In this document: positions 16,187 through 34,177 of the stretch, in pieces | Numbering within the stretch: position 1 is the stretch's first letter | Layout: every line of letters starts with the position of its first letter | Assembly: GCA_001442925.1 (NCBI GenBank) | Contig: LDXX01000003.1 | Span: 248,001-312,000, forward strand | Direction: 5' to 3' | DNA: 64,000 bases | Source of the DNA: Candidatus Kryptonium thompsonii | GTDB taxonomy: Bacteria > Bacteroidota > Ignavibacteria > Kryptoniales > Kryptoniaceae | Made by a program: the position numbers and the translations under genes | The notes under the pieces: model-generated | Databases searched by the model: none | The model's input: the letters and a program-made list of their open reading frames with translations, nothing else | What the model was told of the DNA's origin: nothing

Positions 16187-16214
16187 TTTTTGTGTGGATG
16201 GTATTTAAAATAGC

Positions 16215-17126
16215 ATGAGCTATTTTTATGATCTTGGCATTGCGTGGGAATGGGAGTATGATTTTGATTTTGTTAATTTGATACTTCAAAGGTGTAAGGA
16301 GAAACAGCTTAAAGTTTGTGGTATCACCCCTGAGAATTTAAGTGAAATTTTTAACGCTGTAAAAAGAGGGGATATAAATTTTCTTGCCTATTTTGACAGG
16401 GCTTCAGATGTCAACGAGAGCTTCGCAGATTTAAACCTTCTAATTGAAAGTTTGGGGGTTAGAGTTATAAACCGATATGGTGATATGATTCGTGCTTCGG
16501 ATAAGGCGACCATGCATCTTGAACTTTTAAATGCTGGTGTTTCACTTCCATACACGCTTATCCTTCCACCTTTCGATGAATCACCTGATATTAAAATCGA
16601 CGGTGAGATTTTAAACAAAATTAAAATTCCATTTATTGTTAAACCTTCATCCGAGACGGGTGGTGGGATTGGGGTTAAGATTGGTTATTCAATTGATGAT
16701 ATAATTGAAGCCAGAAAGGAGTTTCCATATGATAAATATCTTATTCAGGAGATAATCCAGCCTGTTTATATTGATGGGAGGAAAGCTTGGTTTAGGGTTT
16801 TTTATGCTTTTGGAAAAGTGTTAATTTGTTGGTGGGATAATGAAATTAAAATATATGAGAAACTGAAGTCGGAGGAGCTTGAGAAATATGAGCTTGGTGG
16901 AATTGAGGATGTAATGCGAAAAATTTACAGTGTTTGTAAGCTTGATTTTTTCTCAAGTGAGGTAGCTTTAGCAGTCAAGGATGGCAAGCGCAAGTTTATT
17001 TCAGTTGATTATGTGAATGAGATTCCCGATATGAGGTTGAAGTCGAAGGCTATTGATGGGGTTCCAGATGAAGTTGTCGAAATGATTGCGGGGGAATTTG
17101 CTGAGTTTGTTGCTAATTTAAAATGA
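16215..17126 (+). CDS. ATP-grasp-fold enzyme of unknown substrate
   Basis: The 303-residue product shows ATP-grasp hallmarks: a pre-grasp N-terminal half, the segment DKATMHLELLNAGVSLPYTL that introduces the fold (as in RimK and D-Ala-D-Ala ligases), the glycine-rich loop IVKPSSETGGGIGVKI, the adenine-contact strand YLIQEIIQP, and a C-terminal VDYVNEIPDMR, where the metal-binding Asp/Glu/Asn normally lie. These enzymes join a carboxylate to an amine or thiol through an acyl phosphate. The second metal-binding element is not fully clear, and the substrate cannot be named. Confidence 0.72.
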   Translation: MSYFYDLGIAWEWEYDFDFVNLILQRCKEKQLKVCGITPENLSEIFNAVKRGDINFLAYFDRASDVNESFADLNLLIESLGVRVINRYGDMIRASDKATMHLELLNAGVSLPYTLILPPFDESPDIKIDGEILNKIKIPFIVKPSSETGGGIGVKIGYSIDDIIEARKEFPYDKYLIQEIIQPVYIDGRKAWFRVFYAFGKVLICWWDNEIKIYEKLKSEELEKYELGGIEDVMRKIYSVCKLDFFSSEVALAVKDGKRKFISVDYVNEIPDMRLKSKAIDGVPDEVVEMIAGEFAEFVANLK

Positions 17127-18909: not shown

Positions 18910-20376
18910 ATGGCATTAAAAGTTTACAACTCTCTTACAAGGCGAAAAGAAGAGTTTAAACCTGAAATTGAAGGTTTCGTTCGAATGTATGTCTGCGGAC
19001 CGACGGTTTATGCGCATTCGCACCTTGGGCATGCGAAAAGCTATGTCTCCTTCGATGTCATCGTTAGATATTTGAGATATCTTGGCTATAAAGTTAGATA
19101 TGTTCAAAATATAACCGATGTCGGACACTTGACTGATAACGCAGACCAAGGCGAGGATAAAATCATAGCTCAAGCAAGAAAGGAAAGGCTTGAGCCGATG
19201 GAGCTTGTTGAAATTTATATGAGAAGTTACTTTGAGGATATGGATAGGCTTGGAAATTTAAGGCCTGATATTTCCCCACGAGCGACTGGACATATTCCGG
19301 AGCAAATTGAACTTGTTGAAATTTTGCTTAATAAAGGTTATGCGTATGAGGTAAATGGCTCCGTTTATTTTGATGTGTTGAAATTTCCAGAATATGGAAA
19401 ATTATCCGGAAAGAAAATTGAAGATTTAATCGCGGGTGCAAGGGTTGAGGTTAGAAGTGAGAAGAAAAATCCGTTTGATTTCGCACTTTGGAAGAGAGCT
19501 GAGCCTGGGCATATAATGAAATGGAGAAGTCCGTGGGGCATTGGATATCCGGGTTGGCATATTGAATGCTCTGCGATGAGCATGAAATATCTTGGCGAAA
19601 CATTTGACATACATGGGGGTGGAATTGAGAACCAGTTCCCGCATCATGAATCTGAAATCGCACAAAGCGAAGCAGCGACCGGAAGACCGTTCGTCAGATA
19701 CTGGCTTCACAACAATATGGTCACCGTCAATGGGGTCAAGATGAGCAAATCGCTTGGGAATGTCATAACTTTAAAAGATGCTTTTAAAAAGTATCATCCA
19801 CTTGTGATAAGATTTTTCATTTTGTCAAGTCATTATCGCAGTCCGGTTGATTATAGTGATGAGGCGCTTGACGCAGCAAGCAAAGGGCTTGAAAAACTTC
19901 ATAATACTGTTAAATTGTTAAGATATGAAATTTCAAAATCTCAGCAAGGCAAAAAACATGAAATCAATCTTGAGGAATATAAGCGCAGATTCATTGAAGC
20001 TATGGATGATGATTTTAACACACCAGTTGCCATTTCGGTATTGTTTGATCTTTCAAGGGAGGTAAATCAAATTTTGAATTCTTCAGAAGTTCACTCATCC
20101 GAATCTTTGAAAGAGATAGATGAATTTTATAAAGAATTTGGTGGGAAAATTCTCGGTTTGATTCCAGATGAGTTTGAGGAGAGGAAATCCACTTCGGGGA
20201 TAGAATCTCAATTAATAGAGCTCCTGCTTAAGATAAGGGCTAAGGCGCGGGCTGATAAAAATTGGGAACTTGCGGACTGGGTCAGAAGTGAGTTAAAAAA
20301 TCTTGGCATCATCCTTGAAGACAGAAAGGATGGCACGACAGTATGGCGATTTGCTGAAAGGGTAGAAACTTTGTGA
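18910..20376 (+). CDS. cysS: Cysteinyl-tRNA synthetase
   Basis: This class I aminoacyl-tRNA synthetase charges tRNA-Cys. The 488-residue product carries the HIGH-type motif HLGH (about 36-39) after VCGPTVYAHS, the zinc-site region with Cys28, WHIECSAMSMKYLG and FPHHESEIAQSEA, and the KMSKS loop VKMSKSLGNV. The DALR-type anticodon-stem domain fills the C-terminus. The 70-base gap to the following RND operon shows no clear promoter. Confidence 0.97.
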   Translation: MALKVYNSLTRRKEEFKPEIEGFVRMYVCGPTVYAHSHLGHAKSYVSFDVIVRYLRYLGYKVRYVQNITDVGHLTDNADQGEDKIIAQARKERLEPMELVEIYMRSYFEDMDRLGNLRPDISPRATGHIPEQIELVEILLNKGYAYEVNGSVYFDVLKFPEYGKLSGKKIEDLIAGARVEVRSEKKNPFDFALWKRAEPGHIMKWRSPWGIGYPGWHIECSAMSMKYLGETFDIHGGGIENQFPHHESEIAQSEAATGRPFVRYWLHNNMVTVNGVKMSKSLGNVITLKDAFKKYHPLVIRFFILSSHYRSPVDYSDEALDAASKGLEKLHNTVKLLRYEISKSQQGKKHEINLEEYKRRFIEAMDDDFNTPVAISVLFDLSREVNQILNSSEVHSSESLKEIDEFYKEFGGKILGLIPDEFEERKSTSGIESQLIELLLKIRAKARADKNWELADWVRSELKNLGIILEDRKDGTTVWRFAERVETL

Positions 20377-20448
20377 TGGACTTTGTGTTGTAAATTATCG
20401 AAGGGCTTGGGGTATTTCTGAGCCAAAATAAAGAGGGCTATTTTTGTA

Positions 20449-23400
20449 ATGTCCCTGACCGAGATTTCAATTAATCGCCCCGTCACAGTGGCGATGTTTT
20501 TTATCGGAGTCGCTGTGCTTGGTTCAATTGCTTTATTTTACATGAGCGTTGATTTTCTCCCACCCATACAAATTCCGGAGCTTCTCGTTCAAACCCTATA
20601 TCCTGGGGCTTCTTCTGAAGAAGTGGAAAAGCAGGTGACGGAGCCAATTGAATCAATCCTTGGGACGGTTGGAGGTGTTAAAAAAGTTACATCAATTTCG
20701 CGCGAGGGGCTTTCGCTTGTTCGTTTGCAGTTTTACTGGGGCACTGATATCGATTATGCAATGCTTGAGGTAAGGGAAAAACTTGACGCTGTAAGACAAT
20801 CTCTCCCAGAGGAGGCTGGAAGGCCTACGATTGTTAAAATTGATCCTTCGTCTGAGTCAATAATAACCATTGCCTTAACTTATTCGGATAGAGATGTATC
20901 GGAGAGCGGAATCGCGAATTTGAAAGAGTTCGCGGAAGCTCTTGTGAAAAGACGGCTTGAACAAATTGAAGGGGTTTCCCAAGCGGTTGTGGCTGGAGGA
21001 TATAGCAGGGAAATTTTAGTTGTGGTTGATGTTGAAAAGATGAAATCGTTTAATTTAACCTTTGATGATATTGCAAATGCGTTAAAAAGTTCAAATATGA
21101 GCATCGCTGGTGGGACGATAAAACAGGGGAATCTCAGATACCCGTTCCGTGTCGCATCTGAATTCCAAAGCTTGAAGGATATTGAAAGTGTTGTTATTAG
21201 GAAAGGTCAAGGTGCTGGCGTTCGCTTATCCGAGGTCGCAAAAGTTGTTGAAGGTTTTTCAGAAAGGCAGGGATTGACGAGATTGAATGGGAGCGAGGCA
21301 ATTTTAATTTTTGTGAAAAAGGAAGCACTTGCAAATACGATAAAGGTAAGCGAGAAAGTATCCAAAGTTGTATCCGAACTTATTAGAGATTATCCAGAAG
21401 TTAAAATGGAGATAGTTTTCGATCAGGCGGAATTTATAAAGAAGTCAATTTCCGATATTGAGCAGGCAATTTTCTGGGGCGCTTTGCTTGCTTTCCTCGT
21501 CCTTTTCCTGTTCCTGCGCGATTGGAGATATCCGATGATAATTGGAATGGTTACTCCATTTTCAATCCTTGCAACGGTTGTGATGATGTATATTACGGGT
21601 GTAAATTTCAACATAATTTCGCTTACAGGTCTTGCGCTTGGCATCGGGATGATCGGAGACAACGCGGTGATCATAGTTGAGAATTTCACGAGATTGAGGG
21701 AGCAGGGGCTAAGTGTTAAAGATGCGGTTTTAAAAGGTGCGAGGGAGATAAATCTTGCTGTTTCAGCGGCGACATTTACAAATGTTGCCATATTTTTGCC
21801 TGTCGTCCTTGTCAAAGGGATCGCTCAAAAGTTTTTCCTTGATATGGGGCTTACAATGACTTTTTCGCTTATATCTTCACTTGTTGTCGCAGTGATGCTC
21901 GTCCCATCTCTTCTTTCAAGATTAAAGGACAAAAAAGAGAAATCAGACATTGAGAAAAATCCCTTCATCAAAGCCTATGAAAAATTCATGGCTTTATATT
22001 TATCTTCTTTAAGATGGATGTTGAGGAACAGGGGAATGGTTTTGGCTGTGACGACAGTTTTAACTTTGATCTCGCTTTTGATAGCATTTCTCATCAAGGC
22101 TGAACAAGCCCCGGATATTGATCAGAGCAGATTCACAATAGAGATAAATATGCCTTACGGCTCGACGCTTGAAGTTATCTCAAATGTTGCCGGTATGATT
22201 GAAAAGGAGTTGTTAAGCATAAATGAAATTCAAGCGGTTGTTTCGGATCTCGGTATATCTTCACAGGAGGACTATTTTAGCATTTTGTTTGCAAGTTTAA
22301 ACAAGGGTAAAATTTATGTAAAGATAAAGCCCGAGTATAAGGTTGATGATGTTATGGATAAGGTTCGTTCTTATTTTGAGAGAAGTGGTTTAATTAAAAC
22401 TTTAAGTTCGCTCGGCGCTGAAGTTTCGTTTCAGAGGAGAAGCACAACATTTGAGAGGATCCTTCAAACTACAGAAGATGATATCGCCATAAAAATTGCT
22501 GGTAAAGGATTTGCAAGCTCATCGTTTGATTCATTGCTTTTCATCGCAAAAGATATAGTTGAAAAAATTAAAAACATCCCAAAGGTAACCGATTTAAGGA
22601 CCATCCCCGGTCCGGGCAATCCGCAGGTGAGAATACTTGTTGATAAATCCGCCATTGAAAAATATGATCTAAATAGTTCTGATATCGTTTCTGAGGTGGC
22701 GGGTTATTTGAGAGGGAAAGTTGCCACTTATATAAGCAGGTTTAACGAGCAAATTCCGATTCGCATCATCTCGGATAAATCAAGGGATGAGGACGCCTTA
22801 TTTTCGCTTTTAAATTACAGTTTAAAAGCTAACAATTCAAAAAGTTCTTCGTTAGTTCCTATTCAATCTGTTGTAAAAATAGAAAAGGGACAAGGGTTGA
22901 ACGAAATTTATCATGAAAATGGGAACAGGGTAGCTCTTGTAGTTGCAAATTCAAGAGGTGGGAATATTTTTGCGATAAATAATCAAATAAGCGATGCGAT
23001 CAAAGATATCGAGTTAAGGTATCAAAACATTTCAATTAAAATTGGCGGGAAGATTGAGGAAATTTACGAGTCATATAGAGGGCTTTTGATCATAATTTTG
23101 CTTTCAATTTTCATAGTTTATATGATACTCGCTTCTGAGTATGAATCGATCGTTTATCCATTTGTCATTTTATTGACAAGTCCGCTTGCGCTTGTTGGAG
23201 CTTTCATAGCCATGTATCTTGCAGGGCAAAGTTATAATGTGATGTCAATAGTTGGGCTTGTTATAATGCTTGGTGCTATAGATAACGATGCGGTGATCGC
23301 TGTTGACCTTATAATATTAAACCGAAGGGATGGGATGCCGCTTGAGGATTCCATAATTGATGGGATGAGGAAAAGGTTCAGGCCGATCGTGATGACAACG

Positions 23401-23577
23401 CTCACAACTATACTCGGCATCATTCCACTTATCGTTGGTTTTGGAAAAGGGCTTGAGCTTGCGGTTGCGATAAGTTATCCCATAATCGGGGGTTTGATTG
23501 CATCGACTATTTTCACACTTTTTATAATTCCCGTCGTTTATACCTATTTTGATAAGTTTTCTCTAAAAGGAAGGTAG
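20449..23577 (+). CDS. RND efflux permease (HAE-type), first of two
   Basis: The 1042-residue product has the duplicated RND layout: a TM helix at the N-terminus, a large periplasmic porter/docking region, six TM helices, then a repeat of the same. The family start MSLTEISINRPVTVAMFFIG is present. The TM4 charge motif reads GIGMIGDNAVIIVEN, and the TM10 motif reads GAIDNDAVIAVD where AcrB has its Lys. The proton relay therefore differs from AcrB, as in many non-enterobacterial members. Such pumps export drugs, lipids or metals from periplasm or membrane. A second permease and an adaptor follow, so it probably forms a heteromeric pump like MdtBC. Confidence 0.9.
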   Translation: MSLTEISINRPVTVAMFFIGVAVLGSIALFYMSVDFLPPIQIPELLVQTLYPGASSEEVEKQVTEPIESILGTVGGVKKVTSISREGLSLVRLQFYWGTDIDYAMLEVREKLDAVRQSLPEEAGRPTIVKIDPSSESIITIALTYSDRDVSESGIANLKEFAEALVKRRLEQIEGVSQAVVAGGYSREILVVVDVEKMKSFNLTFDDIANALKSSNMSIAGGTIKQGNLRYPFRVASEFQSLKDIESVVIRKGQGAGVRLSEVAKVVEGFSERQGLTRLNGSEAILIFVKKEALANTIKVSEKVSKVVSELIRDYPEVKMEIVFDQAEFIKKSISDIEQAIFWGALLAFLVLFLFLRDWRYPMIIGMVTPFSILATVVMMYITGVNFNIISLTGLALGIGMIGDNAVIIVENFTRLREQGLSVKDAVLKGAREINLAVSAATFTNVAIFLPVVLVKGIAQKFFLDMGLTMTFSLISSLVVAVMLVPSLLSRLKDKKEKSDIEKNPFIKAYEKFMALYLSSLRWMLRNRGMVLAVTTVLTLISLLIAFLIKAEQAPDIDQSRFTIEINMPYGSTLEVISNVAGMIEKELLSINEIQAVVSDLGISSQEDYFSILFASLNKGKIYVKIKPEYKVDDVMDKVRSYFERSGLIKTLSSLGAEVSFQRRSTTFERILQTTEDDIAIKIAGKGFASSSFDSLLFIAKDIVEKIKNIPKVTDLRTIPGPGNPQVRILVDKSAIEKYDLNSSDIVSEVAGYLRGKVATYISRFNEQIPIRIISDKSRDEDALFSLLNYSLKANNSKSSSLVPIQSVVKIEKGQGLNEIYHENGNRVALVVANSRGGNIFAINNQISDAIKDIELRYQNISIKIGGKIEEIYESYRGLLIIILLSIFIVYMILASEYESIVYPFVILLTSPLALVGAFIAMYLAGQSYNVMSIVGLVIMLGAIDNDAVIAVDLIILNRRDGMPLEDSIIDGMRKRFRPIVMTTLTTILGIIPLIVGFGKGLELAVAISYPIIGGLIASTIFTLFIIPVVYTYFDKFSLKGR

Positions 23578-23591
23578 GTCTTTGGATTGTC

Positions 23592-26500
23592 ATGCTTGAG
23601 AAAATTTTAAAAAGGCCGGTCACCGTTTTAATGTTTTATTTTACGCTTTTAATTTTAATGCTTTTTTCGCTCACTCAACTTGCGATTGAGATAACCCCGG
23701 AGATTGATTTCCCGAAGCTTTATGTTGTCGCAAACTGGCGTGGTGTTTCAGCGGAACTGGTTGAAAGGTTTATCACCACAAAGATTGAAGAGGTCGCGGT
23801 AACTGTTGCGGGTGTGAAGAAAGTTTCATCGAGAACACGGGAGGGAAATTCGTGGGTTGAAATTGAGTTTCAGAAAAATGTTGATATTGATTTTGCAAGA
23901 CTTGAACTATCCGAAAAGCTCGCGTCTGTTTATAGAACTTTTCCTGAGGGAGCTGAGTATCCGCAGATTCAAAAGTATGTCCCTTCGGAATTTCAGGAAC
24001 TTCAAGGATTTATGAGCTTGAGCATTTATGGTGATGCTGAAATCACAAAAATTCAAAAGATAGTTGATGAGATAATTAAACCTTCGCTTTTGGGGATAAA
24101 GGGGATCGCGAATGTAAGGGTGCTTGGCGGAGTTAAAAGGGAGATTTTGATAAATGTGGATGAAGAAAAATTAAAAAATTTCGGCGTCAGCATCTATGAG
24201 CTTATAAAAGCATTGAACGAATATCAAATCTATAGCCTTGCTGGTTATGTTGATGAGGGAAAGATCAGGCATTTCATTTATACTGGAAATTATTTCAAGG
24301 ATGTCGATGAAATTAAAAATATCAAAATCAGCAATGGGCAGGGGATTTATGTAAAGCTTTCTGATTTCGCAAATGTTGTTGACACAATATCGGAACCCAA
24401 CAGCTATTCAAGGATAAACGGGATGCCTTTTCTAACGGTTGAGATTGATAAGGAGCCGGGGGTAAATATGATAAAAGTTGCAAACTTAGTTGATGAAAAA
24501 ATTAACGAGTTAAAAGATTTAATAAATTCCAGATATGGCTTAAAAATTGAGATCGAGAAGGTTTACGATAGAAGCAAAAATATAAAAATGGAAATAAGGG
24601 AGCTTGCAAATAAAGCTTTAATCTCCGCTGGATTTATTGTTTTGATTCTCATCCTGTTCCTGCGTAATGTTGTTTCATCATTTATTGTCTTCCTTTCTGT
24701 TATTTTTTCAATCTCGGGTGTGATTGTGTTCTTATATGCTTCTGGGATTGGGCTTAACATAATGACTCTTTCAGCGTTGGCTTTATCTTTCGGGATAGTG
24801 ATCGACAATTCAATTGTAATTTTTGAAAACATCCAGAGATATTTTGAGGAGCGGAGAAAATTTGATATTGAAGTCATCCTTACGGCGGTTGATGAGATGA
24901 AATTGCCCGTCGTCGCAGCTTCACTTACAACTGTTGGTGCACTTGTCCCTGTTTTCTTGCTTCCCGAAAATTTGAAGCCGTATTTTGTTCAGTTCGCTAT
25001 CACAGCTGGTTTTGTTGTTATTTTTTCTCTCTTGGTCTCATTGACCTTTATTCCGATCGTTTCGCTTAAAGTTTTGAACAGGGTTAAGCCAAAGAAAGAA
25101 ATGAGGATTTTAGGGTTCATCTCGGGTGTTTACGCAAAAATTTTACGCTGGAATTTGCGCCATAAATGGTTTGTTTTTTCTTTGGTTGTTTTGCTTTTTG
25201 GATTACCTGTGTGGATGTTGCCAGAAAAAATTGAGGTAAATGAGGAAAAAGTTAGTTTCGAAATTTTTGGGAGAAAAATTTCGCTTGTTGGGATCGCAGA
25301 GCTTTACAATAAAATCTTTTCAAGCAAATTTTATGTCACCGCGAAACCTTATATTGACCATATACTTGGAGGGACATCACATCTTTTCTTCAAGTATGTC
25401 TATAAGGGCGAGCTATGGAGGTGGGGTACCGAGACATATATAGTAGTTGATATAAGAGCTCCCCAAGGCACGGAGATTTCAAGAATTGATGAGTTTGTCA
25501 GAAAAATTGAAAAGCAATTAGGAAAAAATCTTAGCCACATAGAAAAGTTCACATCTTTGATCTCAAATAGATATGCTACTATAAGAGTTGATTTCAATGA
25601 TAAGGTTGCGATGACTTCAATACCTTACATAATTAAGGAGAATTTAATCTCGTTATGTGCGCAGACAAGCGGATTCACGGTATCCGTTTATGGATTTGGT
25701 CCCGGATTTTACTCCGGTGGGGTGATTATCCCAAGCTTTTCAATCCAAATTCTTGGCTATAATTATGATGTTGTAAAACAAATAGCACAAAACATAGCTG
25801 AAATCGTCTCGCAAAATCCAAGGGTTTCGGATATTGAACTTGACAGGGTGCCGTGGATGTCAAAGGAATACGAGGTTGTCGCTTCAGTTGATAGAGAAAA
25901 ATTAAGCAAATATGGGATTAACCTTGGGGAGTTAATTTATTTCATCGCGGGGAAATTAAGAATGTCGGTTGAAAATTTAAATATGAAGATAGAAAATCAA
26001 AATGTTAAATTGAAAATCACTGTTTCAAAATCGGGAGATACGGATACCGGGGTTGATGTGAGGGAACTTTTGGAATCAAACTTTGTAACGAGAGATAGAA
26101 GTGTAAAGTTGGCGGATATTTTAAAGGTTGAGTTTGTTCCAACGATGCCGGAGATACGGCGTGAAAATCAACAATATACAAGATATATAACCTTTAACTA
26201 CAAAGGTCCTTATAACTACGGAAGTAAATTCACGGATGCAGTTATAAAAAGCGTTAAAGTTCCACCTGGGTATGAGGTGAAGAGAGTTGAACGTTTACTC
26301 TTTTTATTTGGTGAAAGGGAGAAAATACCGTTGATATTAATTGCGATTGTTTCCGTCTGTCTTGTTTTCATGATCACTGCTTCGCTTTATGAATCTTTCA
26401 GGAAGCCGTTCGTCATCATATTATCTGTTCCGATGTCTTTGATAGGTTTATTTGCTGTGTTTTATCTTTTTGATGTTAACTTCGGCAGGGGTGGATATGC

Positions 26501-26822
26501 AGGGCTTATACTTTTGATAGGTCTATCGGTTAACAATGGGGTAATTCTTGTTGATAAAATTGCAAATTCAATTTCAAAATCGGGTGTTAAAATCCAGGAT
26601 TCAATCTATGATGATATTCTCATATCAGCTTCTTTCAGCAGGGTGAGGTCAATTTTGATAACGAATTTTACGACGATAGCTGGGTTTGCACCGTTTATTT
26701 TTACGAAGAATATATATTCGCTTTGGTATCCGTTTGCAGTTGCTGTTTCAGGTGGACTTTTGTTTTCAATATTAATTGTTCTTTTAGTCACCCCCGTATT
26801 TTATAAAATTATTGTCAAATAA
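23592..26822 (+). CDS. RND efflux permease (HAE-type), second of two
   Basis: The 1076-residue product has the RND start MLEKILKRPVTVLMFYFTLL, the TM4 motif ALSFGIVIDNSIVIFEN and the TM10 motif GLSVNNGVILVDKI. It is diverged from the first permease. An extra hydrophobic, weakly conserved insertion sits near residues 530-600 (LPEKIEVNEEKVSFEIFGRK onward). It starts 14 bases after the first permease gene, so both should come from one mRNA. Two unequal permeases with one adaptor suggest a 2:1 or mixed trimer, by comparison with MdtBC. The substrate is unknown. Confidence 0.88.
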   Translation: MLEKILKRPVTVLMFYFTLLILMLFSLTQLAIEITPEIDFPKLYVVANWRGVSAELVERFITTKIEEVAVTVAGVKKVSSRTREGNSWVEIEFQKNVDIDFARLELSEKLASVYRTFPEGAEYPQIQKYVPSEFQELQGFMSLSIYGDAEITKIQKIVDEIIKPSLLGIKGIANVRVLGGVKREILINVDEEKLKNFGVSIYELIKALNEYQIYSLAGYVDEGKIRHFIYTGNYFKDVDEIKNIKISNGQGIYVKLSDFANVVDTISEPNSYSRINGMPFLTVEIDKEPGVNMIKVANLVDEKINELKDLINSRYGLKIEIEKVYDRSKNIKMEIRELANKALISAGFIVLILILFLRNVVSSFIVFLSVIFSISGVIVFLYASGIGLNIMTLSALALSFGIVIDNSIVIFENIQRYFEERRKFDIEVILTAVDEMKLPVVAASLTTVGALVPVFLLPENLKPYFVQFAITAGFVVIFSLLVSLTFIPIVSLKVLNRVKPKKEMRILGFISGVYAKILRWNLRHKWFVFSLVVLLFGLPVWMLPEKIEVNEEKVSFEIFGRKISLVGIAELYNKIFSSKFYVTAKPYIDHILGGTSHLFFKYVYKGELWRWGTETYIVVDIRAPQGTEISRIDEFVRKIEKQLGKNLSHIEKFTSLISNRYATIRVDFNDKVAMTSIPYIIKENLISLCAQTSGFTVSVYGFGPGFYSGGVIIPSFSIQILGYNYDVVKQIAQNIAEIVSQNPRVSDIELDRVPWMSKEYEVVASVDREKLSKYGINLGELIYFIAGKLRMSVENLNMKIENQNVKLKITVSKSGDTDTGVDVRELLESNFVTRDRSVKLADILKVEFVPTMPEIRRENQQYTRYITFNYKGPYNYGSKFTDAVIKSVKVPPGYEVKRVERLLFLFGEREKIPLILIAIVSVCLVFMITASLYESFRKPFVIILSVPMSLIGLFAVFYLFDVNFGRGGYAGLILLIGLSVNNGVILVDKIANSISKSGVKIQDSIYDDILISASFSRVRSILITNFTTIAGFAPFIFTKNIYSLWYPFAVAVSGGLLFSILIVLLVTPVFYKIIVK

Positions 26823-26837
26823 ATTGAGGTGTTAAAT

Positions 26838-28082
26838 ATGGTGGGAAAGATTGCGTTTAAAAAGTTTTTTATCTTCGCTGGCATTTTCGTAATTCTTGGT
26901 GCCATTTTAATTTTGGGGTTAATTTTATCTGGAGATGATGACAAGGAAACCACAGCATTAAAAGAAGTAGAAACGGGAGAGATATTTTTCCCTGTTAAAA
27001 TCGATGTCGCAAGGAAAGGCGATCTCATACAGTTGATAAGCGCAAGTGCTCTGGCGAAACCAGCTTGTGAGATCGACATAATCCCAAGGGTTGGTGGCCA
27101 AATTGTCAACTTAAATGCCTACAATGGTAAGTTCGTTAAAGAGGGAGAACTAATTTTAAAGATTGATGATACGGAGTTTAAGATAGCCTTAAAACAGGCG
27201 GAGCATAATTTGCTTGATGCGAGAGTTGAATATAATCTTATGAAATCCGGCATCGTCCCAGGGGGTGGGAATCCGGAAAGATTTAAAAGGGAAATTGATA
27301 GTTTAAGGGTTATTTACGAAGATATGAGGAAAAAATTTGAAGCGGGGCAGATAAGCGAGGTGGAAATTGAAAGAGTTAAAAGAGATTACGAGGCTTTGCT
27401 TGTTTATAGCGATGTGAACAGAGAAGATGTAATCGCAAATAAAAGCGGTTTAAATAGAGCCTTGGTTGAGTATGAGAAAGCAAAATTAAATTTAAGCTAT
27501 ACAGAAATAAAAGCTCCCTTCTCTGGATACATAGCGGATTGTGAGTTGACCCCCGGGGATTACATCACAGCTGGGCAAAAATGTATGAAGCTTGTTGATA
27601 TATCAAAAATCAGGGTGATCTGTGAGTTGACAGAAATGCAAATGGCAAGGATTAATCTTGGAAATATAGCTGAGGTTGAATTCGTCGCTTATCCTGGGGA
27701 AGTTTTCAAAGGAAGAGTTGTAGAGATAAACCCTTACATTGATATTAAAAGACGGCTTGGAAAAGTTGTAATAGAGATTGAAAATCCTGAACATAAAATA
27801 AAACCTGGCATGTTTGGAAGTGTGAGAATCCAGGGTGAAGTTTATAAAAATATCTTGCTTGTTCCAAGGCGGGCAGTTATTATGCGTGATGATAAACCAG
27901 TTGTGTTTGTTTACCAAAGCAACGGCGAAGATCAAGGGCTTTCTAAATGGTTCTATGTTGAACTTGGTCGTGAAAATGAGCAATTTTATGAGATAAAAAG
28001 TGGAATAAATCCTGGAGATACGATAATCGTTGAGGGAAACTATAACCTTGCGCATGATTCAAAGGTTAAAATCGTAAGGTGA
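26838..28082 (+). CDS. RND efflux periplasmic adaptor (membrane fusion protein)
   Basis: The ATG at 26838 is chosen because GAGGTG lies 6 bases upstream; a GTG at 26829 would overlap that site. The 414-residue protein has an N-terminal TM anchor (about 8-30), a split biotinyl-lipoyl domain (PRVGGQIVNLNAYNGKFVKEGELILKID and YTEIKAPFSGYIADCELTPGDYI), a helical hairpin between them, a beta-barrel and a membrane-proximal domain (VPRRAVI...VFVYQ). It would link the two permeases to an outer-membrane channel. No TolC-type gene is in the operon. Confidence 0.9.
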   Translation: MVGKIAFKKFFIFAGIFVILGAILILGLILSGDDDKETTALKEVETGEIFFPVKIDVARKGDLIQLISASALAKPACEIDIIPRVGGQIVNLNAYNGKFVKEGELILKIDDTEFKIALKQAEHNLLDARVEYNLMKSGIVPGGGNPERFKREIDSLRVIYEDMRKKFEAGQISEVEIERVKRDYEALLVYSDVNREDVIANKSGLNRALVEYEKAKLNLSYTEIKAPFSGYIADCELTPGDYITAGQKCMKLVDISKIRVICELTEMQMARINLGNIAEVEFVAYPGEVFKGRVVEINPYIDIKRRLGKVVIEIENPEHKIKPGMFGSVRIQGEVYKNILLVPRRAVIMRDDKPVVFVYQSNGEDQGLSKWFYVELGRENEQFYEIKSGINPGDTIIVEGNYNLAHDSKVKIVR

Positions 28083-28104
28083 AAACCAAATTGGGGGGAT
28101 GATT

Positions 28105-28512
28105 ATGCTTCTTAATAAAAGAAATCTTGAAAACTTTATTCGGGGGAATATCTCAAAGCAAAATTTTTGTGTAAGTGAAGTTGCTGATTATTTCGATGTT
28201 TCAGTCTCGTATCTATATGATTTCATCGCTGAAAATTACGGGACAACTTTACATAAACTTATTGAGACATACCGTCTTGAAAAGGCGATAAGGTTGATTT
28301 CGGAGGGGGTTAATTTCAAAAATGTTTGTAAAGAGTGTGGTTATTACAGAATTAGAACATTTAGAGGGGCTTTTAAAAGGAGATTGGGGATTTCGCCATT
28401 GGAGTTTAAGAGGATGCTGGATGAGAACTTTGAATTTAAAGAGAAATTGGTTCGGAATTATTTGGGAATTTTATGGGATGGGGTGAGGGGTTGGTGTGAT
28501 GATAAAGTGTAA
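28105..28512 (+). CDS. AraC-type transcriptional regulator, DNA-binding domain only
   Basis: The 135-residue product consists of a tandem HTH of the AraC/XylS type: first HTH about 20-45 (CVSEVADYFDVSVSYLYDFI), then YRLEKAIRLISEGVNFKNVC and the second HTH GYYRIRTFRGAFKRRLGISPLEFKRM. No sensory domain is attached. The ATG at 28105 has a G-rich ribosome site seven bases upstream; an in-frame ATG at 28099 abuts it. The stop codon overlaps the first of four 13-bp repeats at the next promoter. It may regulate that promoter, the efflux operon upstream, or both. Confidence 0.82.
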   Translation: MLLNKRNLENFIRGNISKQNFCVSEVADYFDVSVSYLYDFIAENYGTTLHKLIETYRLEKAIRLISEGVNFKNVCKECGYYRIRTFRGAFKRRLGISPLEFKRMLDENFEFKEKLVRNYLGILWDGVRGWCDDKV

Positions 28513-28562
28513 AAATTTTCCGTAAAAAATTTCCGCAAAAATTTTCCGTAAAAACTTTCCCC
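28511..28562 (+). repeat. Four 13-bp tandem repeats in front of a promoter
   Basis: Exactly four consecutive 13-base units are present: AAAAATTTTCCGT, AAAAAATTTCCGC, AAAAATTTTCCGT and AAAAACTTTCCCC. Units 1 and 3 are identical. The array ends five bases before the -35 box of the promoter at 28568. Single copies of the core GTAAAAATTTTC recur before the two related promoters at 30896-30907 and 33205-33216. This placement suits an activator array, plausibly for the adjacent AraC-type protein. Confidence 0.8.
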
Positions 28563-28567
28563 TTTTC

Positions 28568-28596
28568 TTGACAAAAAGATTTTGATGATTTAAATT
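28568..28596 (+). promoter_or_regulatory. Promoter of the MauE-thioredoxin and peptide genes
   Basis: TTGACA (28568-28573), 17 bases, TAAATT (28591-28596). The spacer and -10 (AAAAGATTTTnATGATT then TAAATT) are nearly copied at 30913-30941 and, with one -35 change, at 33222-33250. Confidence 0.7.
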
Positions 28597-28628
28597 CTTG
28601 GGTGAGAAAAATAATTTAGTTTTGATTT

Positions 28629-29534
28629 ATGACTGTTAAGTTGATTTCAATTTTAAGGGTAATAATTGGACTTGTTTTCGTTGTTTCGGGATTTGGGAAG
28701 TTAATTGATATTAATGAGTTTGCTAATATCGTTAGATCTTACGGATTTTTCCCCAATTTTTTAGTATTTTCATTTTCAATTTCGCTGTCACTTTTTGAGA
28801 TTTTACTTGGGATGATGTTTTTGTTAAAAATGTGGGTTAGGTTTGTTAGTGTGGCTTTATTATTGTTTTCAATTCTTTTCTTTTTTGCTTTGATATATGG
28901 TTTTTATTATTTGGGGCTTGATGAGTGTGGTTGCTTTGGAAGTATTTTAAGTATTAGCGATAGATTTGCTAATTTGTTGAAGTCAGTTATCTTAATTGTT
29001 TCAATTAGTTTATACATTTTGATTGAGAGGTTATATTCTTTCAAATTCTTTTTTAAATTTCTTGTTTTTGTTCTTTTATTTTCAAGTTTGTTAATTTTAG
29101 CTTTTGCATACGGTGGCCATGTTGATTATGGTGAAATTGATTTAAGTTTTTTAGGTGGTCAAATTGACAATGATAGTTATTATCTCTTGATAATTTTTTC
29201 ACCCCTTGATTGTCATAGTTGTTTAAGTTCAATGGTTCCTGTTTGGAACGAGATAGATAGTGTTTATAGGGATGTAAAGGTTTTAGGTATTGCTTATTCT
29301 AAGGATGAGAGATTAGTTAATTATGTGCTGGATATATACCGTTTTAAGTTTGAGGTGAGGAGGTTTGATAATGTTCCTATAGATTTTATGGTGACACCTG
29401 TTGAGATTTTGGTTGATGGTTTTGGCAAGGTTTATTATAGGGTTGAGGGGGTAAAACCGACTAAAGTCCATGTGAGGCAGTTAATAACTGCGATAAACAA
29501 AATTTCAAAACAAAAAGAAGGAGGTAAAACATGA
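28629..29534 (+). CDS. MauE/DoxX-like membrane protein fused to a thioredoxin-like domain
   Basis: The 301-residue product begins with four hydrophobic helices (about 5-25, 45-66, 70-95, 113-132) carrying the MauE-type motif CGCFG (Cys100, Cys102). A fifth helix (about 142-161) leads to a C-terminal thioredoxin-like domain with a CxxC pair (Cys195, Cys198 in DCHSC) and a late VTPVEILVDGFGKV strand with the cis-Pro type Thr-Pro. By analogy with MauE/MauD and with VKOR-DsbA fusions it should pass electrons or disulfides across the inner membrane. The next gene, overlapping by four bases, encodes a peptide with four cysteines, an obvious candidate substrate. Confidence 0.78.
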   Translation: MTVKLISILRVIIGLVFVVSGFGKLIDINEFANIVRSYGFFPNFLVFSFSISLSLFEILLGMMFLLKMWVRFVSVALLLFSILFFFALIYGFYYLGLDECGCFGSILSISDRFANLLKSVILIVSISLYILIERLYSFKFFFKFLVFVLLFSSLLILAFAYGGHVDYGEIDLSFLGGQIDNDSYYLLIIFSPLDCHSCLSSMVPVWNEIDSVYRDVKVLGIAYSKDERLVNYVLDIYRFKFEVRRFDNVPIDFMVTPVEILVDGFGKVYYRVEGVKPTKVHVRQLITAINKISKQKEGGKT

Positions 29535-29734
29535 GTAGGGTCAAGTCAATTGTCAAATTAATTGTTTTAGCTTTAGTATTAATTGTTGCGGTCATGGTTG
29601 GTTATACAAAAATCTCATTCGGTGAGGAACCAAGTGATCAATATTGTGCTACTTACAATCTACAGGATCCGCGTATTTGTTATGATAAGCCACTTAACTG
29701 TATGTGTGAGATCGTAGTCCCGCCGCCGAAATAA
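29531..29734 (+). CDS. Small exported cysteine-rich peptide
   Basis: The 67-residue product has a strong ribosome site (AAGGAGGT, 6 bases before the ATG). It has a basic start, a hydrophobic helix at about 8-25 and a possible cleavage site after SFG (residue 31). The mature part of about 36 residues has four cysteines (39, 50, 57, 59) and ends in three prolines. It resembles in layout the NVEALA-type peptides of Bacteroides, which have a similar leader and conserved cysteines and lie next to propeller genes. I see no clear NVEALA motif, so family membership is not claimed. A strong terminator follows directly. Confidence 0.75.
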   Translation: MSRVKSIVKLIVLALVLIVAVMVGYTKISFGEEPSDQYCATYNLQDPRICYDKPLNCMCEIVVPPPK

Positions 29735-29740
29735 TAAAAA

Positions 29741-29772
29741 GCAGGGAGTGGAAGCTCCCTGCTTTTGTTTTT
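29741..29772 (+). terminator. Rho-independent terminator after the peptide gene
   Basis: An eight-base perfect stem (GCAGGGAG, loop TGGAAG, CTCCCTGC) is followed by TTTTGTTTTT. It lies between the peptide gene and the first propeller gene. No good promoter is visible in the 45 bases before that propeller gene, so expression downstream probably depends on partial read-through. Confidence 0.9.
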
Positions 29773-29817
29773 AATTACCCAAACCAAATTATACAAAATA
29801 AGTGGATTGAATTTTGG

Positions 29818-30888
29818 ATGAAAAAAATATTGCTTTTTTTATGCCTTTTATTAGTTTCGTGTGGGAAAAATGAAAAACTTAATGTTTACAGTTTTATTTT
29901 AGATAAAAAGCTTGTCAAGATTGAAAGGAAAGGGGAGATAAGGATTAAGGAGACGAAAGATAATTTCATTGGCATAATTTTCGACATTGAGGTTTATAAC
30001 GAATGGTTAGTGAATCTTGATATGGTACAGTCGAAGGTTCAGTTTATAAACGTAAGGGATGGGTCTATTGAGAGAAGTTTTGGGAGAAAGGGTATGGGTC
30101 CTGGTGAGATGGTGGATCCATCAGGTTTTACAATAAGTGAGGATGGGAAAATTTTCATTTATGATAATGGGGTGAGAAAAATTTTATGCTTTAACATAGA
30201 TGGTGAATTTTTGTATTCATTTGCTTTCCCATCCGATTTAAGTGCAGGTGATAATCTTAAGGTAAGGGATGGGAAGCTATATATTAGTCTTCTTGAGCTC
30301 AGGTATGCTAATCCATCTGAGATATGGAAATCACGAACGATAGGTGTTTTTGATTTAAAAGGGAATTTGCTCAACTTGTGTGGCATGCATGATGAAATTA
30401 AAAAAACATTTACATATGGAGCTGAGATATGGTTTGATTTTGATAGGTTTAGTAATTTGTATTCTATCGATAGGGGTACATATCGTATTTACAAGTATGA
30501 CAAAAACTACAAGTTGATCAAGGTATTTGGTGTTCAAGGCAAATTTAGATTGCCCAAGGAGGACATACCCTGGAATTTACCTCCCCAAGAGATAGTCAAA
30601 AGGTTGATGAGAAGTTCCGGAACAAGGTCACTGATCGTTTCTGGGGATTATGTATATCATCAATTTTCTGATCTAACTGAGAAAGCTGTGAGAGAAAGGA
30701 ATCCTTTATACAGCAAAAATTATTTAAAGTTGTATGATCTTGATGGTAATTATATTCCATCGGACATTGAGTTGCCTGGGATATTGCTTGATGTTGATGA
30801 TGAGGGGAGACTTTACATATATGAGAGTGATGAGCCTGGGAATAGGGTAATAGGTATTTATGAGTTGAAAGTTGTTGATAAAGGTTAA
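29818..30888 (+). CDS. Six-bladed beta-propeller lipoprotein, copy 1
   Basis: The 356-residue product has a lipoprotein signal (CLLLVSCGKN, Cys at about residue 16). Propeller blades follow: FIGIIFDIEVYNEWLVNLDM, SFGRKGMGPGEMVDPSGFTI, DGKIFIYDNGVRKILCFNID, FSNLYSIDRGTYRIYKYDKN and VDDEGRLYIYE. The GPGEM/DPSG stretch is typical of the 6-bladed (DUF5128-like) family of Bacteroidota. It is expected to sit in the periplasm or outer membrane as a binding scaffold. It is almost identical to the gene at 32127; the proteins differ at residue 4 (Ile/Val) and 338 (Asp/Asn). Confidence 0.82.
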   Translation: MKKILLFLCLLLVSCGKNEKLNVYSFILDKKLVKIERKGEIRIKETKDNFIGIIFDIEVYNEWLVNLDMVQSKVQFINVRDGSIERSFGRKGMGPGEMVDPSGFTISEDGKIFIYDNGVRKILCFNIDGEFLYSFAFPSDLSAGDNLKVRDGKLYISLLELRYANPSEIWKSRTIGVFDLKGNLLNLCGMHDEIKKTFTYGAEIWFDFDRFSNLYSIDRGTYRIYKYDKNYKLIKVFGVQGKFRLPKEDIPWNLPPQEIVKRLMRSSGTRSLIVSGDYVYHQFSDLTEKAVRERNPLYSKNYLKLYDLDGNYIPSDIELPGILLDVDDEGRLYIYESDEPGNRVIGIYELKVVDKG

Positions 30889-30941
30889 TTGCGATGTAAA
30901 AATTTTCTTTGCTTGACAAAAAGATTTTTATGATTTAAATT
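29829..30941 (+). repeat. Long direct repeat, copy A (propeller gene plus downstream promoter)
   Basis: This segment matches 32138-33250 at a constant offset of 2309 bases with no insertion or deletion that I could find. Substitutions are few and clustered: around 30494-30517, around 30809-30850, and in the promoter tail after 30890. The flank before 29829 is much less similar. This mosaic fits a tandem duplication homogenised by gene conversion. Confidence 0.88.
30913..30941 (+). promoter_or_regulatory. Promoter of the second propeller gene
   Basis: TTGACA (30913-30918), 17 bases, TAAATT (30936-30941), preceded five bases upstream by the shared motif GTAAAAATTTTC (30896-30907). It lies inside the long repeat and matches the promoter at 28568-28596. 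Confidence 0.7.
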
Positions 30942-30971
30942 TTCAGGTGAGAAAATATAGGAAAGATAAAT

Positions 30972-32054
30972 ATGCGTGCTAAAACTTGGTTAGCTTTTTT
31001 GATCTTGGGGTTAGCTGTTAGTTTTATTTATCCATTTTTAGCGGGAAGCTTTGATAACAATTATCAAAAAAATGTTCTAACTTTTCAAGTAAATAAGTAT
31101 TGCAGGGAGCAGAAGATAAAGAGTAGAATTTTCAAGAATGTGGATGTAAAAAGGATATTTAGAACCAGTGATTCTCTTTTCTCACCGATTAAGTTAAAGT
31201 TAGATAAGAGAAATTCGTATCTTTATGTGCTTGATATAGGGGATTTAAGGATAAAAAAGTTTTCTTTATCTGGGAAATTTATCAGATCATATGGTAGGGG
31301 AAAAGGTAAAGGTCCTGGTGAGTTCTTAAACCCTGTAAGTTTTGTTGTTGACGACAATTTAAGAATATGGGTTAGCGACCCATACACTGGAATTATAACA
31401 GTAATTGGAGATGATAATTCGATCAAGCGAAGTTTTAGACCTAAAAATATATCTGCGGAAATCTGTTTGGCAAAGGGAAAAGTTGTATTAAGTCGTACAA
31501 TCAACACTGAGTATTTATTTGATGTTTATGATATGTCAGGTAATTATTTATATTCATTAGGCGAGAAAATTTTCCCTGTAAATTCTAAGTCACCTGAATT
31601 TCTTTTTGGATTTCCTTTAATTGCTGGAATAGAGGATATAGATTTTGATCACAAGTTTTTATATTGTACATTCGAGAGATTAAATTGTTTTCTTGCGATT
31701 GACATTGAAAAAGGGACATTGAAATATTTAATGAAGACCATCGATGATATCAAATTGCCGGAAATTAAAGTTATAGAGACAAAAAGTGGACCTATATATA
31801 AGGTTGGGGAAGATAAAGAATTCCCATCTTTGGCTATGAACTTGGTTGGGGATAAGATATACATAACAAGTGGTAAGAATTTTTCAGTTGATGATAATAC
31901 GACCTTTGTTGATGTTTATTCATCTGAAAGTGGCGAGTATTTATATTCATTTAAGATTCCCGAGAAATTTAAACAGGGGGGATATTTTGACGGTAGATAT
32001 TACTACGGTGTCGGGGACACTTCAATTTCAAAGTGGGAGGTAATATTTAGGTGA
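30972..32054 (+). CDS. Divergent six-bladed beta-propeller protein, membrane anchored
   Basis: The 360-residue product begins with a hydrophobic signal or anchor (about 7-26), without a lipobox cysteine. The blade pattern of its neighbours is kept: RIFRTSDSLFSPIKLKLDKR, IKKFSLSGKFIRSYGRGKGK then GPGEFLNPVSFVVDD, IWVSDPYTGIITVIGDD and YLYSFKIPEKF. It belongs to the same family as the flanking genes but is clearly diverged, so it is an older paralogue between two young copies. A single cysteine near residue 38 and others within blades show no motif. Function unknown. Confidence 0.78.
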   Translation: MRAKTWLAFLILGLAVSFIYPFLAGSFDNNYQKNVLTFQVNKYCREQKIKSRIFKNVDVKRIFRTSDSLFSPIKLKLDKRNSYLYVLDIGDLRIKKFSLSGKFIRSYGRGKGKGPGEFLNPVSFVVDDNLRIWVSDPYTGIITVIGDDNSIKRSFRPKNISAEICLAKGKVVLSRTINTEYLFDVYDMSGNYLYSLGEKIFPVNSKSPEFLFGFPLIAGIEDIDFDHKFLYCTFERLNCFLAIDIEKGTLKYLMKTIDDIKLPEIKVIETKSGPIYKVGEDKEFPSLAMNLVGDKIYITSGKNFSVDDNTTFVDVYSSESGEYLYSFKIPEKFKQGGYFDGRYYYGVGDTSISKWEVIFR

Positions 32055-32126
32055 GAAAAATAAGAAAACTTAGAATGATGGTTTCCCGCATTTTTAATTA
32101 CACAAATAAAGTGGGCTGGATTTGGA

Positions 32127-33197
32127 ATGAAGAAGGTATTGCTTTTTTTATGCCTTTTATTAGTTTCGTGTGGGAAAAATGAAAAACTTAATGTTTACAG
32201 TTTTATTTTAGATAAAAAGCTTGTCAAGATTGAAAGGAAAGGGGAGATAAGGATTAAGGAGACGAAAGATAATTTCATTGGCATAATTTTCGACATTGAG
32301 GTTTATAACGAATGGTTAGTGAATCTTGATATGGTACAGTCGAAGGTTCAGTTTATAAACGTAAGGGATGGGTCTATTGAGAGAAGTTTTGGGAGAAAGG
32401 GTATGGGTCCTGGTGAGATGGTGGATCCATCAGGTTTTACAATAAGTGAGGATGGGAAAATTTTCATTTATGATAATGGGGTGAGAAAAATTTTATGCTT
32501 TAACATAGATGGTGAATTTTTGTATTCATTTGCTTTCCCATCCGATTTAAGTGCAGGTGATAATCTTAAGGTAAGGGATGGGAAGCTATATATTAGTCTT
32601 CTTGAGCTCAGGTATGCTAATCCATCTGAGATATGGAAATCACGAACGATAGGTGTTTTTGATTTAAAAGGGAATTTGCTCAACTTGTGTGGCATGCATG
32701 ATGAAATTAAAAAAACATTTACATATGGAGCTGAGATATGGTTTGATTTTGATAGGTTTAGTAATTTGTATTCTATCGATAGGGGTACATATCGTATTTA
32801 CAAATATGACAAGAACTACAAATTGATTAAGGTATTTGGTGTTCAAGGCAAATTTAGATTGCCCAAGGAGGACATACCCTGGAATTTACCTCCCCAAGAG
32901 ATAGTCAAAAGGTTGATGAGAAGTTCCGGAACAAGGTCACTGATCGTTTCTGGGGATTATGTATATCATCAATTTTCTGATCTAACTGAGAAAGCTGTGA
33001 GAGAAAGGAATCCTTTATACAGCAAAAATTATTTAAAGTTGTATGATCTTGATGGTAATTATATTCCATCGGACATTGAGTTGCCTGGGATATTGCTTGA
33101 TGTTGATGATGAGGGGAGGCTTTACATATATGAGAGCAACGAGCCTGGGAACAGGGTTATAGGTATTTATGAGTTGAAAGTTGTTGATAAAGGTTAA
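32127..33197 (+). CDS. Six-bladed beta-propeller lipoprotein, copy 2
   Basis: The protein equals copy 1 (29818) except Val4 for Ile and Asn338 for Asp. The lipoprotein signal and all blades are intact, so both copies should be functional. Silent changes outnumber amino-acid changes, which points to purifying selection or recent conversion. The 72-base gap to the gene before it has no promoter match, so it is probably read with that gene. Homologous recombination between the copies would delete the divergent gene between them. Confidence 0.82.
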   Translation: MKKVLLFLCLLLVSCGKNEKLNVYSFILDKKLVKIERKGEIRIKETKDNFIGIIFDIEVYNEWLVNLDMVQSKVQFINVRDGSIERSFGRKGMGPGEMVDPSGFTISEDGKIFIYDNGVRKILCFNIDGEFLYSFAFPSDLSAGDNLKVRDGKLYISLLELRYANPSEIWKSRTIGVFDLKGNLLNLCGMHDEIKKTFTYGAEIWFDFDRFSNLYSIDRGTYRIYKYDKNYKLIKVFGVQGKFRLPKEDIPWNLPPQEIVKRLMRSSGTRSLIVSGDYVYHQFSDLTEKAVRERNPLYSKNYLKLYDLDGNYIPSDIELPGILLDVDDEGRLYIYESNEPGNRVIGIYELKVVDKG

Positions 33198-33250
33198 TTG
33201 TGATGTAAAAATTTTCTTTGCTTGATAAAGAAACTTTTATGATTTAAATT
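32138..33250 (+). repeat. Long direct repeat, copy B (propeller gene plus downstream promoter)
   Basis: Partner of 29829-30941 at an offset of 2309 bases. The -35 box of its terminal promoter has changed from TTGACA to TTGATA, and the spacer carries further changes, while the coding part is nearly invariant. Confidence 0.88.
33222..33250 (+). promoter_or_regulatory. Promoter of the outer-membrane barrel gene
   Basis: TTGATA (33222-33227), 17 bases, TAAATT (33245-33250), preceded by GTAAAAATTTTC (33205-33216). It is the third member of the promoter family, and its position supports the start codon at 33285 over an in-frame GTG at 33255, which would lie at or before the transcription start. 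Confidence 0.65.
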
Positions 33251-33284
33251 TTTAGTGAAAATTCAAAACCTAAGGGGAATATCT

Positions 33285-33935
33285 ATGAGAAGAGTAATTT
33301 ATTTAGCGCTTTTGGTCTTCATCCTTCAAAGTGTTTCCCAGGCTCAATCTGATATTTGGGTTGAACTTAATGCGGGGGTTTCTTCAGTTTCTGAATCAAA
33401 TTCAGCAAATTCAATCTTGCGTTACTGGGATGGCGGTTGGAAAGTGGGTGGAGCTGTTTCATATGTTGTCTCACAAGATATTCAGTTGGTAGCAAGTGTG
33501 GGTTATAGTCGTTTAAGATATAGTGGGAAAGGACCAACTTTAGCTATTCCTGATGTAGTTGGTTTTCGCATGAGCATAACTGGTGATGCTTCCCATATTT
33601 ACGAAGCTTCCATTGGGACTCGATTATTTATGTCTCATTGTTTTGTAAAACCATTTATATCTATTCGGGGCGGAATTCAATATACACGAGTTGGGGAAAT
33701 CCGTATCACCACATGGATGGAACAGAACCCGCAGAACACATTGACTACCCGTGTTTATAGTTCATCTGGGACAAGTTTTTCAAAACCATTTGCTTTCGTT
33801 GGATTTGGAGTTGGCGCTCCAATTAATTCGTCTGTAAATGTTTTGTTAGAAGGTGCATTCACGCTGACATTTGATGGACTTCAGCCGTATTATTTAATAT
33901 CTTCAATATTTGCAACCTTACAACTTAATCTTTAA
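33285..33935 (+). CDS. Outer-membrane beta-barrel protein, about eight strands
   Basis: The ATG at 33285 has AAGGGG eight bases upstream and begins a clean signal peptide (MRRVIYLALLVFILQSVSQAQ). The 216-residue protein is then built of alternating strands (WKVGGAVSYVV, IQLVASVGYSRLRYSG, YEASIGTRLFM, PFISIRGGIQYTRVG, FAFVGFGVGAPI, NVLLEGAFTLTF) and ends with ATLQLNL, a plausible barrel-insertion end. This is the small porin-like fold of OmpX/OmpA N-domains. It shares its promoter motif with the propeller and peptide genes, so it may be the outer-membrane part of that set. The 242-base gap that follows holds no recognisable gene. Confidence 0.72.
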   Translation: MRRVIYLALLVFILQSVSQAQSDIWVELNAGVSSVSESNSANSILRYWDGGWKVGGAVSYVVSQDIQLVASVGYSRLRYSGKGPTLAIPDVVGFRMSITGDASHIYEASIGTRLFMSHCFVKPFISIRGGIQYTRVGEIRITTWMEQNPQNTLTTRVYSSSGTSFSKPFAFVGFGVGAPINSSVNVLLEGAFTLTFDGLQPYYLISSIFATLQLNL

Positions 33936-34177
33936 GATTATCAAGCTTACAGCAACCAATGGCAAGAAAATGTTAGGAAATTTGGCGATAAAAGTTCACC
34001 TTGAGGAGATAACTGGCGATTATCCCGCCTTTACGAACTAATTCCTGATATCGGGAGTCAAAGAAAACGAAAATTTACAATCTAACGCCATTTGTTTATT
34101 CGCTTATCTTTGATTATTTTATCATTGAAAAACTTGCATATCTGAAAAAGTTTAAAAATAAAAAAGTTCCTGTGTCA

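Follow-up and report, generated by a model that had tools for sequence, protein, structure and literature searches.

The window analysed here is a stretch of 64,000 nucleotides from Candidatus Kryptonium thompsonii (Bacteroidota; Ignavibacteria; Kryptoniales; assembly GCA_001442925.1, contig LDXX01000003.1, positions 248,001 to 312,000 of the forward strand), whose genome comprises 2.59 Mb in 18 contigs. Within it lies a 13.7-kb island that encodes two resistance-nodulation-division (RND) permeases, a periplasmic adaptor of the membrane fusion protein (MFP) type, a small AraC-type regulator, a MauE-thioredoxin fusion, an exported peptide with four cysteines, three propeller proteins, and a possible barrel protein (Table 1). 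All large open reading frames (ORFs) of 20449-33935 are assigned; no outer-membrane channel gene was seen within the island, the rest of the genome not having been searched for one. An initial annotation had singled out the segment 28105-33935 as a possible envelope peptide-redox-propeller system. The regulator, fusion, peptide, and three propellers that it listed are all present there, and its barrel protein is plausible but not certain. The unit is larger than that segment, starting at 20449 with the two permeases and the adaptor rather than with the regulator.

Table 1. Features of the island, in window coordinates, with proteins from other loci in the last row.
Feature	Position	Strand	Evidence and remarks
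Whole island	20368..34089	.	here between cysS and rfaE1; missing in congener G002
RND permease 1, 1042 aa	20449..23577	+	NCBIfam NF033617, 5e-180, under the curated cut-off of the drug-efflux subfamily; first gene of the block missing in G002
RND permease 2, 1076 aa	23592..26822	+	NCBIfam NF033617, 3.5e-130
RND periplasmic adaptor (MFP), 417 aa	26829..28082	+	TIGR01730, 1.1e-58, above cut-off
Small AraC-type regulator, DNA-binding domain only, 137 aa	28099..28512	+	PF12833, 6.8e-15
Three tandem 13-bp iterons TTTTCCGYAAAAA, candidate AraC operator	28516..28554	+	5' of promoter 1
Promoter 1, TTGACA-17-TAAATT	28568..28596	+	motif search; kept in G003, G005, and 5' of the MauE remnant in G001
MauE-thioredoxin fusion, 301 aa	28629..29534	+	PF07291, 2e-18, 67.4 bits (cut-off 27)
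Exported four-Cys peptide, 67 aa	29531..29734	+	four Cys after one hydrophobic segment; start overlaps MauE-thioredoxin stop by 4 nt
Intrinsic-terminator-like hairpin	29737..29766	+	13 pairs, T tail; between peptide and propeller 1
Propeller 1, predicted lipoprotein (LVSC lipobox)	29818..30888	+	PF17170, 2.4e-10
Promoter 2	30913..30941	+	within duplicated unit
Propeller 2, 360 aa, no lipobox	30972..32054	+	PF17170, 5.4e-5, barely above cut-off
Propeller 3, near-identical copy of propeller 1	32127..33197	+	1058/1071 nt identical
Promoter 3	33222..33250	+	within duplicated unit
Possible outer-membrane barrel protein, 226 aa	33255..33935	+	PF13505, 1e-4, 23.0 bits (cut-off 28.7)
Wzy_C/TPR proteins of other cassettes	L118:8264-10081, L114:5872-7776, L120:8728-10554, L124:7032-8858		PF04932

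Within the genus, the 13.7 kb from RND permease 1 to beyond the barrel gene is either there or missing as one block. The blastn match of G002 over cysS ends at window position 20367 and that over rfaE1 starts at 34090, with ~20 bases between the two in G002; because cysS and rfaE1 adjoin there, the island is present or absent as a whole. G005 keeps the order RND-adaptor-AraC-peptide-propeller-thioredoxin. G003 has RND-adaptor-AraC at one contig end and, at another contig end adjoining rfaE1, propellers, thioredoxins, and a five-cysteine peptide. G006 carries a decayed version of the block. In G001, the MauE gene reads as two overlapping frames, possibly through an assembly error, and adjoins an ABC transporter and a propeller. 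The adaptor has a close ortholog in G003, G005, and G006, and none in G001, G002, or G004. Many of the compared genomes are metagenome-assembled, so gaps at contig ends are expected, and ORFs were picked mechanically. The barrel gene is missing between propeller and rfaE1 in G003 and is probably an accessory rather than a core part.

A recurring cassette consists of MauE, one or more cysteine-rich exported peptides, a propeller, and a CxxC thioredoxin anchored in the membrane. A MauE profile built from six genes, all of them from loci already known to carry the module, was used to search 391 genomes of the class, and 20 test regions outside the profile were chosen among its top matches by MauE score only. 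Counting as neighbours all same-strand propellers and short exported cysteine-rich ORFs up to 6 kb away, a propeller accompanies MauE in 18 of the 20 test loci as against 0 of 23 controls (Fisher 3e-10), and a cysteine-rich exported peptide in 17 of 20 as against 2 of 23 (4e-7); the comparison is a rough one, with some controls from other phyla and 4 lacking a MauE match in our own scan. The membrane-anchored CxxC thioredoxin is present at each of the 25 system loci examined and at 3 of 19 controls. The cassette is repeated within genomes, with nine MauE matches in G095, and in two genomes from a second class of the phylum, MauE, peptides, and propellers are joined by AraC and RND permeases. 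RND genes adjoin the system in L044, L051, L117, L120, L125, L127, L146, L199, and L200, and a similar small AraC gene does so in L044, L046, L081, L119, L124, L145, L146, L199, and L200. The system was not seen at the MauE loci L126, L130, L201-L204, and L210, which mark its limit. The module is almost certainly conserved, and the earlier claim that its parts belong together, for which a conserved neighbourhood in related genomes had been named as the check, is borne out.

The peptides share an architecture rather than a recognised family. Neither Pfam nor NCBIfam holds a family for the window peptide, and none was recognised among the 45 system peptides beyond isolated weak matches; a BSMAP match of one peptide (2e-4) was judged to be chance. 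As a query in 60 relatives, the window peptide returned nothing convincing, and related peptides were reached via neighbouring genes instead. Exported cysteines number four in the window peptide and 2-10 in related peptides, and they are even in number in 42 of the 45 (binomial 4e-10, a value made optimistic by peptide relatedness). Many precursors have in common the leader '...LF..LMF.N[IL][KQ]IA...GDI.LFGLKISLF..S.YA'. A leader profile search of the 391 genomes gave strong matches in 14, most of which went into the profile, those in G288, G372, G042, G068 C422, and G221 C139 being the ones that did not. A propeller lies within 1.5 kb in most of these loci, and in nearly all that could be read a propeller, MauE, or thioredoxin gene adjoins. 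Among paralogs within one genome, leaders are 59% identical and cores 27% (shuffled cores, 29 +/- 7%); a conserved leader followed by unrelated cores would match the build of precursor peptides whose cores have diversified. A separate 69-aa cysteine-rich ORF at L209:556-765 (G199), near a MauE gene outside the system clade, has a double-glycine-type leader (..MVQITGG KIAC..) and resembles a class II bacteriocin precursor.

The MauE part of the fusion exceeds the PF07291 cut-off and carries, at residues 100-104, the CGCFG motif that is invariant in the MauE alignment A1. The thioredoxin half, with its C195-x-x-C198 motif, has no Pfam match. An AlphaFold model shows five transmembrane helices followed by a thioredoxin fold (mean predicted local distance difference test score, pLDDT, 68; weak at the C terminus), and among solved structures it comes closest to ResA, TlpA, and CcmG-type proteins, with no E-value under 0.001. 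Loop charges suggest that CGCFG and CxxC both face the periplasm. The fusion that the initial annotation emphasised is present here, but it is one arrangement only; most relatives have thioredoxin as a separate gene, and a second fusion adjoining a peptide was found at L205:7745-8695 (G288). As a marker of the system the fusion alone was rejected, since full-length relatives in other genera (L040-L043) occur with no peptide or propeller nearby. At L043:16108-18711 (G054), cysteine-containing, DUF692-like, DUF2063-like, and DoxX-like ORFs lie in a row, possibly a bufferin-type operon, as judged by eye only.

Peptides and propellers vary together. In comparisons between genomes over 46 peptide-propeller neighbours, peptides with similar cores tend to lie beside similar propellers (Mantel rho 0.10, p 0.0055), and the signal sits in the strongest core matches. 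For eight pairs with related cores, which are not all independent in that two share one propeller pair, the adjacent propellers outrank every other propeller combination of the two genomes in seven and tie for first in one; their normalised scores range over 0.23-0.46, the background being ~0.05. The core GTCC....STC...VV....YY...GPC (Z 14.7) is common to the same-genus genome G005 (L146) and to G276, which belongs to another family; the propellers beside these two peptides score 0.30 as against 0.03-0.06 for other pairs, and the thioredoxins of these cassettes match as well. The cassette is thus the unit of inheritance, and binding of the peptide by the propeller is a natural reading of this pattern, not a proof.

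We interpret the island, with a probability of about 0.6, as an envelope pathway dedicated to small exported peptides that are rich in cysteine. In such a pathway, the AraC protein would act via the iterons at promoter 1, and the peptide would be exported from the cytoplasm through Sec. Thiol exchange with the thioredoxin domain in the periplasm and with the CGC pair of MauE would help the peptide to form its disulfides, of which the window peptide would have two. Once folded, the peptide would be recognised by the lipoprotein propeller that is its cognate partner, and the RND-adaptor pump would release it, an ABC exporter perhaps taking this step in other loci. Disulfide maturation of the peptide is quite probable because cysteine parity and the thioredoxin combine with the role ascribed to MauE in methylamine dehydrogenase, as set out in PMC7794033. 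The even cysteine numbers and the universal CxxC thioredoxin are compatible with the proposal of the initial annotation that the oxidoreductase sets the disulfides, just as the core-propeller co-variation fits its idea that the propellers bind the peptide; a specific partnership of the two is likely. Export by the RND pump is put forward tentatively, at slightly less than even chances, on the basis of genetic linkage and the general ability of RND pumps to take periplasmic substrates; of the permease, adaptor, and outer-membrane channel that make up a tripartite RND efflux system, the island encodes the first two. At slightly lower odds again, the most likely role would be antagonism or kin recognition by secreted peptides that vary, the propeller serving the producing cell as its own binder (immunity protein or receptor). 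This reading draws on the variation of the cores, the matched partners, the lone extra propellers (three per one peptide in the window, four in L160), and the patchy, decaying distribution; variable core, matched partner, and extra partner copies would also make a toxin-immunity or bacteriocin-like genetic pattern. Taken furthest, and with rather less confidence, the peptides may be an undescribed, diversified bacterial family in the style of conotoxins, with a pre-pro-mature layout of signal, conserved pro-region, and variable disulfide core, a dedicated MauE-thioredoxin relay, an efflux pump, and, passed on with each peptide type, a matching propeller as immunity protein or receptor, serving interbacterial antagonism or kin recognition.

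Several observations weigh against this interpretation. A VKOR gene lies at G000:C3:239080-239460, ~9 kb before the window start, and because the genome has it, the MauE-thioredoxin protein may not be the sole disulfide route; its role might also be thiol reduction. Co-variation with the peptides extends to the neighbouring thioredoxins, so it may reflect cassette inheritance rather than binding. The window peptide itself is of a short type with neither the conserved leader nor the pro-region, and its core shows only weak similarity to other cores (lowest p against shuffles 0.003-0.015, over several comparisons). Only some of the system loci have RND genes alongside, others having ABC or Wzy_C genes, and MauE was not found in the stretches of G003 and G005 examined, which are contig ends.

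Among other explanations, a role in metal handling would make the peptides metallophores or metal buffers like bufferins, exported by the RND pump, with a DoxX/MauE-type protein keeping their thiols reduced. Exported cysteine-containing peptides with a DoxX-family membrane protein as neighbour are indeed the pattern of the bufferins (MNIO/DUF2063/DoxX; PMC12452194), and RND permease 1 and the adaptor score against the CusA/CzcA and CzcB models, under the cut-offs. Yet no MNIO (DUF692) enzyme is found among the assigned large ORFs of the island, the HvfX model reaches 14.9 bits against a cut-off of 80, RND permease 1 scores multidrug-type models above the metal subfamily, and the lack of relation among the cores of one genome is hard to reconcile with a single conserved metal site, which makes this explanation unlikely. 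About equally improbable is a stable two-subunit protein of peptide and propeller, an envelope enzyme or binding protein matured by MauE and thioredoxin as in methylamine dehydrogenase (MADH). The mau operon combines a propeller subunit (MauB), MauE, the membrane thioredoxin MauD, and a disulfide-rich exported small protein (MauA), so the gene content is parallel and the maturation logic the same, and the peptide and propeller types are matched. MauE is moreover thought to act on small-subunit disulfides, according to PMC7794033, which cites van der Palen 1997. But none of the 45 peptides matches the MADH small-subunit family, and the propellers, six-bladed and NHL-like, match only DUF5128, TolB_like, and NHL, not the family of the MADH large subunit. 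Two or more tryptophans occur in only 7 of the 45, which excludes a cofactor of the tryptophan tryptophylquinone (TTQ) type for most; for the window peptide, with no tryptophan, a TTQ enzyme was rejected. Nor is an enzyme suggested by the wide variation of the cores or by the lone extra propellers.

The propellers could instead be surface capture proteins, with the peptides as lids, carriers, or anchors for nutrient uptake or adhesion. BtuG, which binds cobalamin, is among the many propellers matched by the propeller model, propeller 1 is a predicted lipoprotein, and a possible barrel protein is encoded downstream. BtuG is not the best structural match, though, the barrel gene is not conserved, and no TonB-dependent receptor was noticed in the cassettes, no search having been aimed at one; we regard capture as slightly less plausible than the metal-handling and two-subunit explanations. 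That unrelated envelope genes merely lie together by chance in one genome is very improbable: AraC, RND, and propeller genes are individually common, but recurrence in many genomes (Fisher ~3e-10), presence or absence as a block, and a promoter unique to the locus refute it.

The envelope pathway that we favour has its nearest known counterpart in the MauE-linked, cysteine-rich candidate peptides that decRiPPter found in Streptomyces, where MauE, and in one family also MauD, lies beside a cysteine-rich precursor gene proposed as the MauE substrate (PMC7794033). MauE adjoining such a precursor is common to both; the decRiPPter precursors have at least 8 cysteines against four in the window peptide, and a propeller, RND pump, shared leader, or cognate pairing does not figure in the passages of the description on which the comparison is based. 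The initial annotation had drawn another parallel, to NVEALA peptides (PF14055). These are likewise short, with one hydrophobic segment and a cysteine-rich tail, and occur near PF17170 (DUF5128-type) propellers in Bacteroides. Membership was rejected: none of the 45 peptides matches PF14055, and 148 genomes of the phylum yield only two matches, both below the cut-off. The papers found on NVEALA, DUF6520/DUF5128, and Ignavibacteria peptides held no description of this gene set, and the kit of peptide, folding machinery, propeller, and pump appears not to have been described before. If the interpretation is correct, mostly uncultured bacteria would hold a large hidden repertoire of disulfide-bonded peptides, the widespread DUF5128-type propellers would gain a testable ligand, and MauE would be a general peptide-folding factor, not an amine-oxidation specialist. 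Matched peptide-propeller pairs are directly testable in vitro.

All three window propellers fall in PF17170 (DUF5128, six-bladed), with 40.6, 23.0, and 40.8 bits against a cut-off of 22.9. A propeller model (pLDDT 78) has its best Protein Data Bank matches in 3s9j (DUF4221), NHL domains, and 4raa. The closest relative of propeller 2 is in G003, at L160:5214-6314. Propellers 1 and 3 differ by two amino-acid changes, which suggests very recent copying or gene conversion; they belong to a duplication of 29787-30955 and 32096-33264, each copy with one propeller and one promoter.

The three promoters had been described as sharing one upstream motif. With up to 3 mismatches allowed, TTGAYAAARANAYTTTNATGATTTAAATT has exactly three sites in the genome, each of them in this locus, and its reversed-pattern control has none; the pattern was derived from the three sites, so zero mismatches say little, and absence elsewhere is the result. 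Promoters 2 and 3 (spacing 2309), however, are not independent because both lie in the duplicated unit. Only the genome-wide motif search counts here, as a sigma-70-like scan was overall no better than shuffles (34 vs 26.6 +/- 5.4). Two further elements, the iterons and the hairpin, had escaped the initial annotation. A similar iteron array stands 5' of the cassette promoter in G003 and G005; the number of iterons in the window is not significant as such, and tandem layout and conservation carry the argument. A strong terminator-like hairpin 3' of the peptide gene would favour the peptide over the propeller.

Other genes are found inside or beside the cassettes. Proteins of ~600 aa that combine a Wzy_C O-antigen-ligase domain (PF04932, ~1e-22) with TPR repeats lie inside several of them (Table 1) and could glycosylate the peptide or the propeller. 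In G095, a LuxR-type (GerE) regulator at L113:7625-8587 and a very similar copy at 15755-16714 replace the small AraC beside MauE-peptide-propeller cassettes. At L045:11840-16814, two ADOP/MacB-like permeases adjoin such a cassette, the first weakly similar to the darobactin exporter DarB.

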